Shown: positions 52,561 through 57,135 of the stretch, one piece after another
Numbering within the stretch: the stretch's first letter is position 1
Layout of the letters: every line of letters starts with the position of its first letter
NCBI RefSeq assembly: GCF_027925155.1
Contig: NZ_BSDY01000002.1
Coordinates: forward strand, 124,001-188,000
DNA: 64,000 nucleotides
Direction of reading: 5' to 3'
DNA from: Propionigenium maris DSM 9537
GTDB lineage: Bacteria > Fusobacteriota > Fusobacteriia > Fusobacteriales > Fusobacteriaceae
Position numbers and translations under genes: made by a program
Notes under the pieces: model-generated
Database searches by the model: none
What the model saw: only the letters and a program-made list of their open reading frames with translations
What the model was told of the DNA's origin: nothing

Positions 52561-54672
52561 TTACAGGTGATATAGCATCTCCTCATAACCTGGCATAGGC
52601 CAAGCTTTAGCTGGCATCATAAGTTCTATTCTATCAGATATCTCCCTTACTTTTTCCATAGAAGCTACAACCTTACTTCTTGAGTGCTGAATATGAGAGT
52701 CTACAGAATCAAACTCACTTCTCTCAACATGCTCTCTCAGCTCCTTAACAGCATCTGTAAGTCTTCCAATCTCTACTCCAAGAGCCTTTATACCGTCCAT
52801 CTGCGAAAGAAGAAGCTCCTCTGAAAGGATCTTTGATGCAGCATTTATAACCTCTGCTCTCTCCTTTAGCTCTCCATTGGCAGCTGGTATTACTTCTCTC
52901 TCTATCATCTTGAGAATAGTCTTTCCCTCTAGGTGAAGCTGGTTTATATACTTCTCAGCATAGATCTGATATCTAGACTCCAGCTCTCCCCTTGTGAATA
53001 CTCCGTGCTTACCAAAGAGTTCTGCAGTTTCATCTGCAAGGTAGTACTTCAGTACATCATTGGTTGCCTTCAGGTTAGGAAGTCCTCTTCTAGCAGCTTC
53101 CTCTACCCACTCGCTTCCATATCCGTTTCCGTTGAAGATTACCCTTCCATGCTTCTCATAGGCACCCTTGATTATCTCCTTCATGGTAGCCTTTATATCC
53201 GAGCTCGCCTCTAGCTTCTCTGCATACTCCGACAGCACCTGAGCAACGATGGTGTTTAATATTACATTTGGTGTAGAAGTTGAAGCCGATGACCCCACCA
53301 TTCTAAACTCAAACTTGTTTCCAGTAAAGGCAAATGGAGAGGTTCTGTTTCTGTCTGTCATATCTTTAGGAAGCTTTGGCATAGAATCTACTCCAAGCTC
53401 AAGCTTAGCTCCCTCCTCTACATGATCTCCCTTTATTCTTCCCAGAATATTGCTCAGCTGATCTCCAAGGAAGATAGAGATGATTGCAGGGGGCGCCTCA
53501 TGTCCTCCCAGTCTGTGGTCGTTATTCGCACTTGCTGCTGACAGTCTAAGAAGTGGAGCATATCTGTCCACTGCCTCTACTACAGAGGTAAGGAATAGGA
53601 GGAACTGTGCATTCTTCTTTGGGTTTTCTCCCGGCTCTAACAGGTTGATTCCAGTGTCTGTAGCCAGAGACCAGTTGTTGTGCTTACCAGATCCGTTGAT
53701 CCCTGCAAAGGGCTTTTCATGTAGAAGGGCCACAAGATCGTGTCTTGCTGCTACCTTCTGAATAATATCCATTGTGATCTGGTTGTTGTCTGTAGCTACA
53801 TTGGCTGTAGTAAATACCGCCGCCATCTCAAACTGGTTTGGTGCCACCTCATTGTGCTTTGTCTTGGATGTAACCCCTATCTTCCAAAGCTCCAGATCCA
53901 GCTCCCTCATGAACTTAGCTACTCTTTCCTTGATAGTTCCAAAGTAGTGTCCTGTAAGCTCCTGGTCCTTTACACTTGGAGCTCCTATAAGGGTTCTTCC
54001 TGTATGCTGTAGATCAAGTCTTTTCAGGTAGAACTCCTTCTCCACTAGGAAGTACTCTTGCTCTACTCCAAGGGTTACACTTACCTTGCTGCTCTCCTTG
54101 TCTCCTAGAGATTTCAATACTCTAAGAGCCTGTCTCTCTACAGATACCATAGATCTTAGAAGAGGTACCTTCTTATCCAGAGCTTCCCCAGTGTAAGCCA
54201 CAAAGGCTGTAGGAATATATAGTGTCGTTCCAGAGTTATCCTCTCTCAGGAATGCAGGAGATGTAGTGTCCCAAGCTGTATACCCCCTTGCTTCAAAGGT
54301 AGATCTCAGTCCTCCATTTGGGAATGAGGAAGCATCTGGTTCCCCCTTTATAAGCTCCTTTCCTGAAAACTCCATAAGAGCTTCTCCCACATTAGTTGCA
54401 TTGATAAATGAATCGTGCTTTTCAGCTGTTAATCCTGTCAGGGGCTGGAACCAGTGAGTAAAGTGAGTGGCTCCATTTTCAATAGCCCAGTCCTTCATAG
54501 CATTTGCAATTACCTCGGCCACTGCTAGAGTCAGTTCGCATTTTCCTTCTTGTACTCTTTTAAATTCCTTAAAAATACTCTTTGGTACACGCTGCTTTAA
54601 AGTTACCTCATTAAAACAGTTTTCTCCATAGATCTCTGTTAAAGGCTTCTTTTTAAAATCAACTCCTATCAT
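52561..54672 (-). CDS. glnN: Glutamine synthetase type III
   Basis: 703 aa, the usual length for GSIII. It has the N-terminal GSIII region (HFTHWFQPLTG, about 70), the glutamate/ammonia core EVAPNQFEMA and the NKHN-like loop GSGKHNNWSL, and the long C-terminal helical part. It makes glutamine from glutamate, ammonia and ATP. ATG after GAGGAGGAG. The upstream 400 bp contain a riboswitch-small ORF unit and a terminator only 66 bp before the ATG, so expression may depend on read-through or a promoter within that gap. Confidence 0.95.
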   Translation of the reverse strand: MIGVDFKKKPLTEIYGENCFNEVTLKQRVPKSIFKEFKRVQEGKCELTLAVAEVIANAMKDWAIENGATHFTHWFQPLTGLTAEKHDSFINATNVGEALMEFSGKELIKGEPDASSFPNGGLRSTFEARGYTAWDTTSPAFLREDNSGTTLYIPTAFVAYTGEALDKKVPLLRSMVSVERQALRVLKSLGDKESSKVSVTLGVEQEYFLVEKEFYLKRLDLQHTGRTLIGAPSVKDQELTGHYFGTIKERVAKFMRELDLELWKIGVTSKTKHNEVAPNQFEMAAVFTTANVATDNNQITMDIIQKVAARHDLVALLHEKPFAGINGSGKHNNWSLATDTGINLLEPGENPKKNAQFLLFLTSVVEAVDRYAPLLRLSAASANNDHRLGGHEAPPAIISIFLGDQLSNILGRIKGDHVEEGAKLELGVDSMPKLPKDMTDRNRTSPFAFTGNKFEFRMVGSSASTSTPNVILNTIVAQVLSEYAEKLEASSDIKATMKEIIKGAYEKHGRVIFNGNGYGSEWVEEAARRGLPNLKATNDVLKYYLADETAELFGKHGVFTRGELESRYQIYAEKYINQLHLEGKTILKMIEREVIPAANGELKERAEVINAASKILSEELLLSQMDGIKALGVEIGRLTDAVKELREHVERSEFDSVDSHIQHSRSKVVASMEKVREISDRIELMMPAKAWPMPGYEEMLYHL

Positions 54673-54731: not shown

Positions 54732-54769
54732 AATAAAAAAGATAGAAATCCCTTGGGAATTCTATCTTT
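54732..54769 (-). terminator. Terminator at the end of the small ORF
   Basis: On the minus strand: AAAGATAGAA and CCC arms pairing with GGG and TTCTATCTTT (one U-U mismatch), then T6. The small-ORF stop codon (54764-54762) lies in its 5' arm. Confidence 0.85.
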
Positions 54770-54905
54770 GATTATCAATTATTTTTTTAGTCGCTAAGTC
54801 CTTTTTAAGAGGTGCAGAATATGCAGTCGACAACACCAGCCCCTTTTCAAGGGGATCGCAAGAATATACAGTTTTCATCTTTTTTTCTAAAGCAGACAAA
54901 AGCAT
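54762..54905 (-). CDS. 47-residue small protein under riboswitch control
   Basis: ATG at 54905 with TAGGAGG six bases upstream, 47 codons, TAG at 54764. The peptide begins MLLSALEKKMKTVYSCDPLE and ends IIDNQR; one Cys, no membrane segment. It lies between a purine-class aptamer and a terminator, forming its own short unit just upstream of glnN. I do not recognise it. The mRNA also contains a short hairpin (CCCCTTGAAAAGGGG, complement of 54841-54855), so the region might instead be a structured RNA. A good ribosome site argues for translation. Confidence 0.5.
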   Translation of the reverse strand: MLLSALEKKMKTVYSCDPLEKGLVLSTAYSAPLKKDLATKKIIDNQR

Positions 54906-54917
54906 AAACTCCTCCTA

Positions 54918-54955
54918 TAAAATAAAATCGTCATTTTTGCAAGCAAAAATAGACG
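54918..54955 (-). terminator. Riboswitch expression-platform terminator
   Basis: On the minus strand CGTC-T-ATTTTTGC pairs with GCAAAAAT-GACG (54955-54929) and is followed by ATTTTATTTTAT. Its 5' arm (54952-54940) can alternatively pair over 13 bp, two of them G-U, with 54979-54967, which begins in the 3' strand of the aptamer P1. Binding of ligand should free the terminator: an OFF switch. Confidence 0.65.
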
Positions 54956-54974
54956 AAATTACAGTACTATCTTT

Positions 54975-55043
54975 ACTTGTAGCAAGGCCATTTACGGCGG
55001 CCTAGTAGAAACATCAGGTCCCTATTACCTGACATATACAAGT
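54975..55043 (-). ncRNA. Purine-class riboswitch aptamer (noncanonical J3/1)
   Basis: 69 nt, the standard length. P1 ACUUGUA/UACAAGU (7 bp); J1/2 UAU; P2 GUCAGGU/ACCUGAU; L2 AAUAGGG fits the consensus xAUAxGG; J2/3 GUUUCUAC is exact; P3 AGGCCG/UGGCCU; L3 CCGUAAA is exact. The specificity position before P1 is C, as in guanine types, but J3/1 reads U-G-C where G-A-C is usual and the base after J2/3 is U, so the C53-G72-type pair is lost. It may be a variant with altered ligand. It precedes the small ORF and glnN. Confidence 0.75.
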
Positions 55044-55054
55044 TTTTACAACTT

Positions 55055-55085
55055 ATTTTAATGAATATTATCACAGCTGTGTCAA
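55055..55085 (-). promoter_or_regulatory. Promoter of the riboswitch unit
   Basis: On the minus strand -35 TTGACA (55085-55080), 19-bp spacer, -10 TAAAAT (55060-55055). This places the start a few bases before the aptamer. Confidence 0.55.
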
Positions 55086-56114
55086 TTAATCAAGCACTTT
55101 TTTGTAGCACAAAGTTGCCTTTTTCCAAGAAGTGGACATTTTGCCACCATCCGCCTTAGAATCTAGTACAAATTCTGGAATTACTACCTCCTGAACAAAA
55201 GAAATTTCTACTTTTTTTAGTTTAATGGAACCCCTCTTAATTATCTTTAATGGGTCAGCCTGAGAAAGCTTTTCTATTTCCTCACCCTCTACTCTGACCA
55301 TAGTTTCCACTGGAAGTCCCCTCATGAGAAGTGCCAGCTTATTTACCTTAACGGCATTTTTCAGGATAAACTCTACCCTTTCATTGGTATTCAAATTCAT
55401 CACCTTGGAAACAGAATAGTATTTATAAAGGGTATCCACTATCTTTAAGAGCTTTAAGTACTCAAATCTCTGAGGAAGGGTAATAGTTACATCCAGACTG
55501 TCTCCCTCTATCCTTATATCATTTCCAGCCACTACTTTCTGCATAAAGGTATATACCTCAAGGGCTCTTTTAAATGGAAGATCCTTGCATACTGAGTAGG
55601 AGGTAAGCTTTGTCATACCTATGGTTCCGTTATCATAGATTACTCCTTCAAAACCTATCCTGCACTCCCTGCTTTTCAGGTGAATCTTCCGTTTACCAAT
55701 CCCCTCTTCCCTTAAAACCTTAAAGTTGTAGAGGGTCTGTCCCAGGGAGGTAATACTTACTCCCCCTGCTGAGAAGAGGTTTCTCTTAGGAAGTTTCTCC
55801 TCTGTATACCCAAAGCCTACAGGGAGCTTTAACTCCTCTACCCGCGCAGCCTCTATATCCAGAAAGCTTTTCACTTCAAAACCAGGGTTCTCAATGAGAA
55901 CTTCCCCTATTTCCTCTACTTCACCCTTTGGCTCCTCTTCAGCTTCAGAGACTTCCAATACCTCTTCACTCTCAGGGGTAGTAGGCTGCTCATCTTCTAA
56001 TCTCTCTGTTTCTGAATCTACTGAGGTCTCAGCCTCTTCAGCTGCCTTCTCTTCTAAACTTTCTTCTGAAGGGAGTGGAGGTTCTGTAGCTGCCTCTTCA
56101 CAGGTTTCAGCCAC
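55086..56114 (-). CDS. Acidic-linker protein, probable -1 frameshift continuation of the SIR2-like gene
   Basis: Nominal GTG start at 56114 without a convincing ribosome site. The frame is open further upstream to the A9 run at 56205-56197, with no ATG. The first ~85 residues are Glu/Pro/Ser-rich and look like a linker; the rest (about 90-342) is a folded, mixed domain I do not recognise (GVSITSLGQTLYNFKVLREE, then GFEGVIYDNGTIG). A -1 shift at A-AAA-AAA would fuse about 370 residues onto the SIR2-like protein. The gene ends next to the riboswitch promoter. Confidence 0.6.
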   Translation of the reverse strand: MAETCEEAATEPPLPSEESLEEKAAEEAETSVDSETERLEDEQPTTPESEEVLEVSEAEEEPKGEVEEIGEVLIENPGFEVKSFLDIEAARVEELKLPVGFGYTEEKLPKRNLFSAGGVSITSLGQTLYNFKVLREEGIGKRKIHLKSRECRIGFEGVIYDNGTIGMTKLTSYSVCKDLPFKRALEVYTFMQKVVAGNDIRIEGDSLDVTITLPQRFEYLKLLKIVDTLYKYYSVSKVMNLNTNERVEFILKNAVKVNKLALLMRGLPVETMVRVEGEEIEKLSQADPLKIIKRGSIKLKKVEISFVQEVVIPEFVLDSKADGGKMSTSWKKATLCYKKVLD

Positions 56115-56182: not shown

Positions 56183-57013
56183 CTACATTAGTAGGCTTTT
56201 TTTTTCCTGTCTAACTTCCTCTAGAGGCAGGTCTACAATCCCCTCTCCTATCATATACTCCCTGATAGCTTCTATAAACTCCATATCACTCTGCTTAAGA
56301 AGCTTTATCTCATTGGCATTTAACCAGTTAAGTGCTGTTGTATTTATTATAGATGATGAGGTTATAAAGTAAGCACTGGCTCTTACTCCCTCTAGCTTAT
56401 TCAGTACCATGGAGATATTATTTATGGTATCTGGATCATCCAGATCATATCCAATAAAAAGAACGATTCTCCCGTTAATCTCCTGGGCAAGCCTGTTAAA
56501 AAACTCATTGTAGATGGGAAGGATATCCAGCTTCCTCATATCCTGCTTTGTAATAATAGTTTTATTCAGGTCGGCCAAACTTCCATTTACCCTATAGAGT
56601 TTCTTATCATTGATACCCCCAAGATCCTCTGAGTAGTAGTTCACCTTAAATACACTGTCTCCATAGGCTTTCTCCACAAGATCATCTATACTGGTAGTAA
56701 TAATACTCTCCACAAAGGGCGCTTCTGCAAAAACCTTCAGGGGGTTTCCCGCACTGTCATCCCCACTATATTGATTCCTTATCTTCTTTAGAAGCTTGGA
56801 TTTACTTCCGCTTATACTGTCAAGGTATACCTGGCTTACTTCTGCCAGGGATTTTTTATCCTTAATTGCGTTCTTTGCACTTTCATTTATATCTGTACAA
56901 ATACTTCGAGCCAGATCTTTTTTTGTAGGGAGTCCCACTATCTTAGAGATCGCGTCTCCAATCCACAGGACCAGCTTCTCTCCCTCCTTTATTCTTCTTA
57001 TAATATTAGACAT
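56183..57013 (-). CDS. SIR2-like protein with altered catalytic residues
   Basis: 276 aa from ATG 57013 (AGGAAGAG upstream; a GTG at 57028 is a weaker alternative). SIR2_2-type pattern: LWIGDAISKIVGLPT where G-A-G-x-S is usual; IITTSIDDLVE (about 110); the catalytic H-G becomes N-G in YRVNGSLAD (about 145); IVLFIGYDLDDPD (about 190). Loss of the His suggests no NADase or deacetylase activity. The ORF stops with TAG just after nine A's (coding QEKKSLLM); the -1 frame continues for 370 codons. Neighbour of lon. Confidence 0.65.
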   Translation of the reverse strand: MSNIIRRIKEGEKLVLWIGDAISKIVGLPTKKDLARSICTDINESAKNAIKDKKSLAEVSQVYLDSISGSKSKLLKKIRNQYSGDDSAGNPLKVFAEAPFVESIITTSIDDLVEKAYGDSVFKVNYYSEDLGGINDKKLYRVNGSLADLNKTIITKQDMRKLDILPIYNEFFNRLAQEINGRIVLFIGYDLDDPDTINNISMVLNKLEGVRASAYFITSSSIINTTALNWLNANEIKLLKQSDMEFIEAIREYMIGEGIVDLPLEEVRQEKKSLLM

Positions 57014-57135
57014 CGTCTCTTCCTCCACCTATGATTTTATCTATGCTAAAATAATCTCCAATTTTGATTAGTTGTTCTCAAGATAGTATACCCTATTTAA
57101 GGTTAATAAACAATAAGATTTGGAAGAAAAAAGAA

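Follow-up and report, generated by a model that had tools for sequence, protein, structure and literature searches.

A probable glnN leader in Propionigenium maris

The window analysed here is the whole 64,000-nt stretch taken from the genome of Propionigenium maris DSM 9537 (contig NZ_BSDY01000002.1, positions 124,001 to 188,000), and coordinates without a further label are positions within it. On its minus strand lies glnN, encoding a type III glutamine synthetase that a sequence-only reading of the locus had already named and that Pfam bears out (GSIII_N, E 7.3e-75). The gene is preceded by a leader with the following parts, listed in the direction of transcription:

55055..55093, minus strand: candidate leader promoter (consensus scan only)
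54960..55061, minus strand: purine riboswitch aptamer, guanine type (C74) (Rfam RF00167, 81.5 bits)
54940..54979, minus strand: antiterminator (sequence and folds)
54917..54955, minus strand: terminator 1, U-rich tail included (folding)
54762..54905, minus strand: leader ORF of 47 codons (ORF list, six other 47-aa versions, positional counterparts in three other genera)
54735..54769 (stem 54738-54769), minus strand: terminator 2 (folding and terminator script)
52561..54672, minus strand: glnN, type III glutamine synthetase, the presumed regulated gene (Pfam GSIII_N)

The consensus scan offers two candidates for the promoter: option A, TTGACA-19-TAAAAT at 55055-55085 (11/12), and option B, TTGATT-15-GATAAT with an extended -10 at 55067-55093 (9/12). 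The leader ORF has 47 codons and an AGGAGG ribosome site (54911-54916) 5 nt 5' of its ATG, as expected from the earlier description of a small ORF with a good ribosome site, and about 66 nt separate terminator 2 from glnN. Upstream of the leader are a 342-aa protein whose N-terminal part is long and acidic and which lacks a notable Pfam match (55086-56114, minus) and, next to it, a SIR2-like protein (Pfam SIR2_2, E 1.8e-16; 56183-57028, minus).

The antiterminator is formed by CAAGUAAAGAUAG (54967-54979) pairing with CUAUUUUUGCUUG (54940-54952) over 13 bp, and from the sequence and the folds it excludes both P1 and terminator 1. The minimum-energy fold of 54915-55061 contains the antiterminator while that of 54915-55043 gives P1 and terminator 1, consistent with two alternative states; the 13-bp antiterminator and terminator platform proposed beforehand was thus recovered, with all 13 pairs and the alternative folds. 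Terminator 1 has its stem at 54929-54955 (-12.6 kcal/mol for 54915-54962) and terminator 2 at 54738-54769 (-15.4 kcal/mol for 54735-54775). A simple terminator scan listed neither (0 found); terminator 1 rests on folding and reading, and terminator 2, also anticipated by the sequence-only reading, was found by folding and additionally by a separate script. What had not been remarked on before is that the 5' arm of terminator 2 consists of the last ORF codons and the TAG stop.

Class of the aptamer

The aptamer matches RF00167 on the minus strand at 54960-55061 with 81.5 bits (gathering cut-off 37; E 4.6e-13) over the complete model (1-102), and is the sole Rfam match above gathering within the 64-kb window. 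Its three-stem junction with the conserved J2/3 and L3 is present. Both the purine class and the core placement (54975-55043) given by the sequence-only reading hold up against the covariance model. In the Rfam alignment the J3/1 segment U-G-C is accounted for by an A73G change and a U.U mismatch at the closure of P3, with C74 intact; residues 73 and 74 follow xpt numbering. The consensus G-A before C74 is therefore replaced by U-G, a feature that varies within this genome and that we do not take as excluding the aptamer from the guanine riboswitches. According to PMC11477304, position 74 is C in the guanine class and U in the adenine class, and the RF00167 alignment places a C here.

Seventeen purine aptamers exceed the cut-off in the 4.1-Mb P. 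maris genome, the one in the glnN leader scoring highest. (Elsewhere in the phylum search the number of purine aptamers per genome ranged from 0 to 15.) By eye, 10 of the 17 have A at position 73, 4 have G and 3 have U; at position 74, C occurs in 14 and U in the other 3. The idea that the odd J3/1 marks an unusual aptamer finds no support in this count, and a new ligand class was rejected: G73 recurs in 4/17 aptamers here, and the glnN leader aptamer retains C74. Given C74 and the recurrence of G73, the aptamer is best classed as an ordinary guanine type, with G73 a local habit of this genome.

The 16 other aptamers lead to 15 first ORFs which, as far as they could be named, are purine-type genes. 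Eight of the 15 score above the NCBIfam cut-off: two xanthine permeases, FGAM synthase, formate-THF ligase, adenine deaminase, xanthine phosphoribosyltransferase, GMP synthase and IMP dehydrogenase. Three match only under the curated cut-off (L102, L106, L110), and four have no NCBIfam match at the 1e-20 limit (L099, L100, L101, L108). The adenine deaminase gene lies behind a U74 aptamer, as adenine sensing would predict. FGAM synthase and GMP synthase, both behind aptamers of this class in P. maris, use glutamine. Locus L101 has tandem purine aptamers (G000:C3:142883-142984 and 143038-143139, minus), both with U74 and so of adenine type by that base, which precede one lipoprotein-like gene.

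Leaders of glnN in Fusobacteriota

We found glnN in 88 of 98 Fusobacteriota genomes and examined 88 upstream regions, comprising 87 of relatives and the window, from 84 genomes. Left out were the region of G091 (a full-length glnN match) and those of fragments in G014, G035, G047, G048, G080 and G085, except for one G080 fragment; five regions were shorter than 450 nt owing to contig ends. In nine of the 88 regions, from four genera, glnN is preceded by a short ORF that has a ribosome site and whose stop codon lies at or within a terminator. These nine are the window, L113-L115 (Ilyobacter), L116, and L118-L121 (one genus, of the Psychrilyobacter type; the L121 stretch tested is contained in L019, from Psychrilyobacter). 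These ORFs have 30-55 codons. Five of the nine were flagged by script, and L113-L115 and L120 were added by eye; four further script-flagged frames (L152, L170, L175, L194) were rejected, as by eye they belong to upstream genes that end over 110 nt away from glnN. The leader ORF is absent from L117 and L122, which belong to the same genus as L118-L121. In a wider survey of 79 glnN loci (L061 left out), a stop codon inside a terminator occurs only in L019, itself from Fusobacteriota. Hairpins with AAAGGC...GCCTTT-like arms were seen before glnN outside the phylum (L080, L085, L086, L087, L090) and are possibly another type of attenuator.

Rfam scans of the 87 upstream regions of relatives returned purine aptamers in three and glmS ribozymes in four. 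The purine aptamers (L118, L119 and L120; 57.3, 59.1 and 57.4 bits, C74 kept) each have their own terminator and lie between the terminator of the leader ORF and glnN; the L121 leader has no such cassette. A search of relatives for the aptamer together with the 47-aa ORF thus did turn up combinations of ORF and riboswitch before glnN, but in a different order and with a peptide whose similarity between genera is marginal. Relative to the leader ORF the aptamer is 5' in one genus and 3' in another, and glnN is downstream in both, which ties the riboswitch to glnN. The proposal of a self-contained unit in which the riboswitch acts on the ORF itself is not supported: in relatives such an ORF belongs to the glnN leader whether a riboswitch is there or not. 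That distribution, together with a purine riboswitch directly before glnN in three genomes, makes glnN the more likely regulated gene and the ORF a leader ORF; we consider glnN probably the gene that matters for the riboswitch.

Ribozymes of the glmS class usually stand before glmS. Here four genomes, all of a single genus in another family of the order, have them just before glnN (72.3-87.7 bits by Rfam):

L128, 1283-1442, plus strand: glmS ribozyme before glnN
L129, 3029-3188, minus strand: glmS ribozyme before glnN
L130, 3641-3801, minus strand: glmS ribozyme before glnN
L132, 1294-1452, plus strand: glmS ribozyme before glnN

A glmS-like motif in L030 was not confirmed by Rfam. Among the matches listed in a search of the open-access literature there was no report of a purine riboswitch or a glmS ribozyme before glnN.

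The predicted peptide of the leader ORF

If the ORF encoded a true small protein, acting in trans on glutamine synthetase or elsewhere, the guanine riboswitch could control that protein and glnN could have its own promoter. The ORFs of the window type speak most for this. Six other versions in the protein collection (P0003-P0008) are all exactly 47 residues long with 74-94% identity (P0002 is a shorter start of the window's own ORF), and the seven 47-aa peptides keep the core MLLSxLEKKxKTxY...LEKGLxLST. In addition, LEK-x-LVLS is common to the window and L116 peptides (15 of 4000 shuffles). A precedent exists in cyanobacteria, where PMC6316151 describes a glutamine riboswitch before gifB, whose small protein IF17 inhibits glutamine synthetase. 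The likeness extends to a riboswitch and a small ORF in the control of glutamine synthetase; the ligand class and the phylum differ, and the small ORF has no DUF or Pfam similarity.

Against a small protein, the similarity across genera is marginal: in the best three of nine comparisons 15, 72 and 178 of 4000 shuffles reach the score, and in the other six 637-2723 do. The window peptide and the L019 peptide reach a score equalled by 202 of 5000 shuffles. The peptide has no Pfam match at E up to 10, and in 60 other genomes the ORF has no match at E < 0.1, the eight weak matches (best E 0.12) including two inside long unrelated frames. No match over 80% of the ORF length was found in the plasmid search, and the ORF was not found by pattern in viral contigs. 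Nor did 97 other Fusobacteriota genomes yield a convincing relative, the only match at E <= 0.05 being in L111 (39% over 41 aa, E 0.0037 per genome, 0 of 5000 shuffles). This would derive the ORF from a CobC-type histidine phosphatase (named by eye), an origin that we rejected; we treat the match as chance, as it is the best of a 98-genome search and the peptide belongs to no Pfam family at E up to 10.

We compared dN/dS in the Ilyobacter and Psychrilyobacter-type leaders, the window type being known as peptides only. Over nine pairs the leader ORF gives values of 0.24-2.35, calculated from as few as 1.5-8.5 synonymous differences in each pair; the corresponding glnN values are 0.02-0.09. For Ilyobacter the values are 0.59, 0.59 and 0.90 (glnN 0.06-0.09), and for the Psychrilyobacter type 0.24, 0.34, 0.60, 0.75, 1.27 and 2.35 (glnN 0.02-0.08). 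In each of the nine pairs glnN has more synonymous differences per site than the ORF, and the single indel among the compared ORFs is of 12 nt. On these three grounds it looks as though the frame and the RNA are kept while the amino acids drift in the two genera compared. Conservation of the small ORF's codons, named beforehand as a test, gives a mixed result: in these two genera the frame, the stop position and the ribosome site are kept, but the amino acids seem only weakly constrained, which counts further against a small protein. So does the position of the riboswitch behind the ORF in L118-L120, where it is unable to control it. We regard a protein acting in trans as unlikely overall, though the sequences of the window type could still accommodate a functional peptide.

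In predicted folds the ribosome site of the leader ORF pairs inside the ORF in L118-L121 and in the window (54905-54916), which may be a chance effect of composition.

The stop codon and terminator 2

The stem of the ORF's terminator begins 8 nt before the end of the stop codon in the window, L118, L119 and L121, about 9 nt before it in Ilyobacter (by eye) and 2 nt before it in L116. As a control, 105 long frames of the genome gave 20 terminators with stems starting from -2 to +30 nt from the end of the stop, 5 of the 20 at +2 or less. Terminators near stop codons are thus usual in this genome, the depth of the overlap being the one unusual point. Having a stop codon within a few bp of a terminator lowers termination in E. 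coli from ~90% to <10% through the ribosome, as reported in PMC4824070, which also mentions the ribosome/polymerase coupling of the pyrBI (pyrL) leader. With the stop codon of the ORF inside its 5' arm, terminator 2 could be masked by a ribosome in the same way.

The relatives give mixed signs of passage through this terminator. For the riboswitch of L118-L120 to act from its place behind the terminator of the ORF, polymerase should read through that terminator; in L119, P1 begins 20 nt past the terminator stem. In L121 the ribosome site of glnN begins 14 nt past the stem, and the 27 nt preceding the gene contain no promoter-like site of at least 8/12. Upstream of the ORF, L118-L121 all retain a promoter-like site with an extended -10 (TATAAT or TATACT; consensus scan). 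Promoter-like sites do overlap the ORF's terminator in L113 and L115 (10/12), L114 and L116 (9/12) and L118 and L120 (8/12), and a 9/12 site reaches into the aptamer in L118-L120. In the window, the gap from terminator 2 to glnN contains a 9/12 site whose spacer is 19 nt, so a separate transcript start for glnN may lie there. Such sites near terminator 2 are what a small protein with a separately transcribed glnN would call for.

The same anatomy could also arise if the guanine riboswitch were the sole regulator and terminator 2 were constitutively leaky, letting a fixed share of transcripts pass over a translated spacer into glnN. The drift of the peptide agrees with this, as does our failure to find an antiterminator pairing with the arm of terminator 2 that is common to the leaders compared. 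However, an ORF, a ribosome site and an overlap of stop and terminator in four genera, even where there is no riboswitch, are poorly explained by a spacer, and we think a merely leaky terminator improbable. Attenuation by codon stalling, in which a ribosome waiting at glutamine codons would mask terminator 2 and glnN would answer to charged tRNA-Gln, is very improbable: the single glutamine codon of the window ORF is indeed next to last, at the 5' arm of terminator 2, but there is no run of such codons, L116 and L118-L121 have none, the one or two in L113-L115 are distant from the stop, and the Q-R end may persist only as a terminator stem.

A model for the control of glnN

We propose that two attenuators in series, the first sensing guanine and the second sensing translation, set the expression of glnN (probability about 0.55). 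When guanine is bound, P1 would hold, the 13-bp antiterminator would be blocked and transcription would end at terminator 1. When guanine is absent, polymerase would pass terminator 1 and the small ORF would be translated; a ribosome close to the polymerase would then mask the 5' arm of terminator 2, giving read-through into glnN. Where translation lags or fails, terminator 2 would form. The net effect would be expression of glnN under purine shortage, provided that translation keeps up, and its shut-off when purine is plentiful.

The two steps differ in standing. Guanine-off attenuation at terminator 1 is very probable, as it follows the anatomy of a known riboswitch class. The guanine riboswitch (RF00167) of Bacillus xpt is of the transcription-terminating type; the leader here resembles it in the C74 aptamer, the antiterminator/terminator platform and the expected switching off with ligand, and departs from it in that a 47-codon leader ORF comes next and then glnN. 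A response of terminator 2 to ORF translation we hold to be somewhat better than an even chance. The nearest likeness is the pyrBI (pyrL) leader of E. coli, in which nucleotide shortage slows polymerase and the ribosome catches up. As in pyrBI, a leader ORF of similar length, here with its own ribosome site, extends into the 5' arm of a terminator that lies ahead of a biosynthetic gene; unlike pyrBI, the gene is glnN and a riboswitch is added in series. A pyrBI-like response to nucleotide supply would agree with the riboswitch. The leader differs from a trp-type attenuator in lacking a codon run for the regulated amino acid (one Gln codon here) and a shared antiterminator pairing among the glnN leaders.

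Purines and amino sugars receive nitrogen from glutamine, and the earlier suggestion that sensing of purines is logically coupled to glutamine supply appears right. The glmS ribozyme (RF00234) fits the same logic: before glnN in four Fusobacteriota genomes, it senses a glutamine-derived product; it differs from the riboswitch in P. maris in being self-cleaving and usually placed before glmS, and is not found before glnN in P. maris. The two purine arrangements and the glmS ribozymes suggest that glnN leaders collect sensors for products derived from glutamine. Enterobacterial glutamine synthetase is subject to cumulative feedback inhibition. More tentatively, and with the odds slightly against it, the glutamine synthetase of Fusobacteriota may be under cumulative feedback at the level of RNA, its glnN leaders having repeatedly acquired such sensors (guanine riboswitches at two positions in two genera and, in another family, the glmS ribozyme). 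The sensors would be stacked on a translated leader ORF, through which glnN transcription would depend on the ribosome keeping up with polymerase. If true, RNA would here play the part that cumulative feedback inhibition plays for the enterobacterial enzyme.

The modular order of the leaders, with the aptamer 5' of the leader ORF, 3' of it or absent, lets swaps of modules test attenuation in series. If the model is true, known sensor RNAs would have moved from the genes of their own pathways to the supplier of a shared substrate, and purine- and GlcN6P-sensing RNAs on glutamine synthetase would close a feedback loop without a protein regulator.
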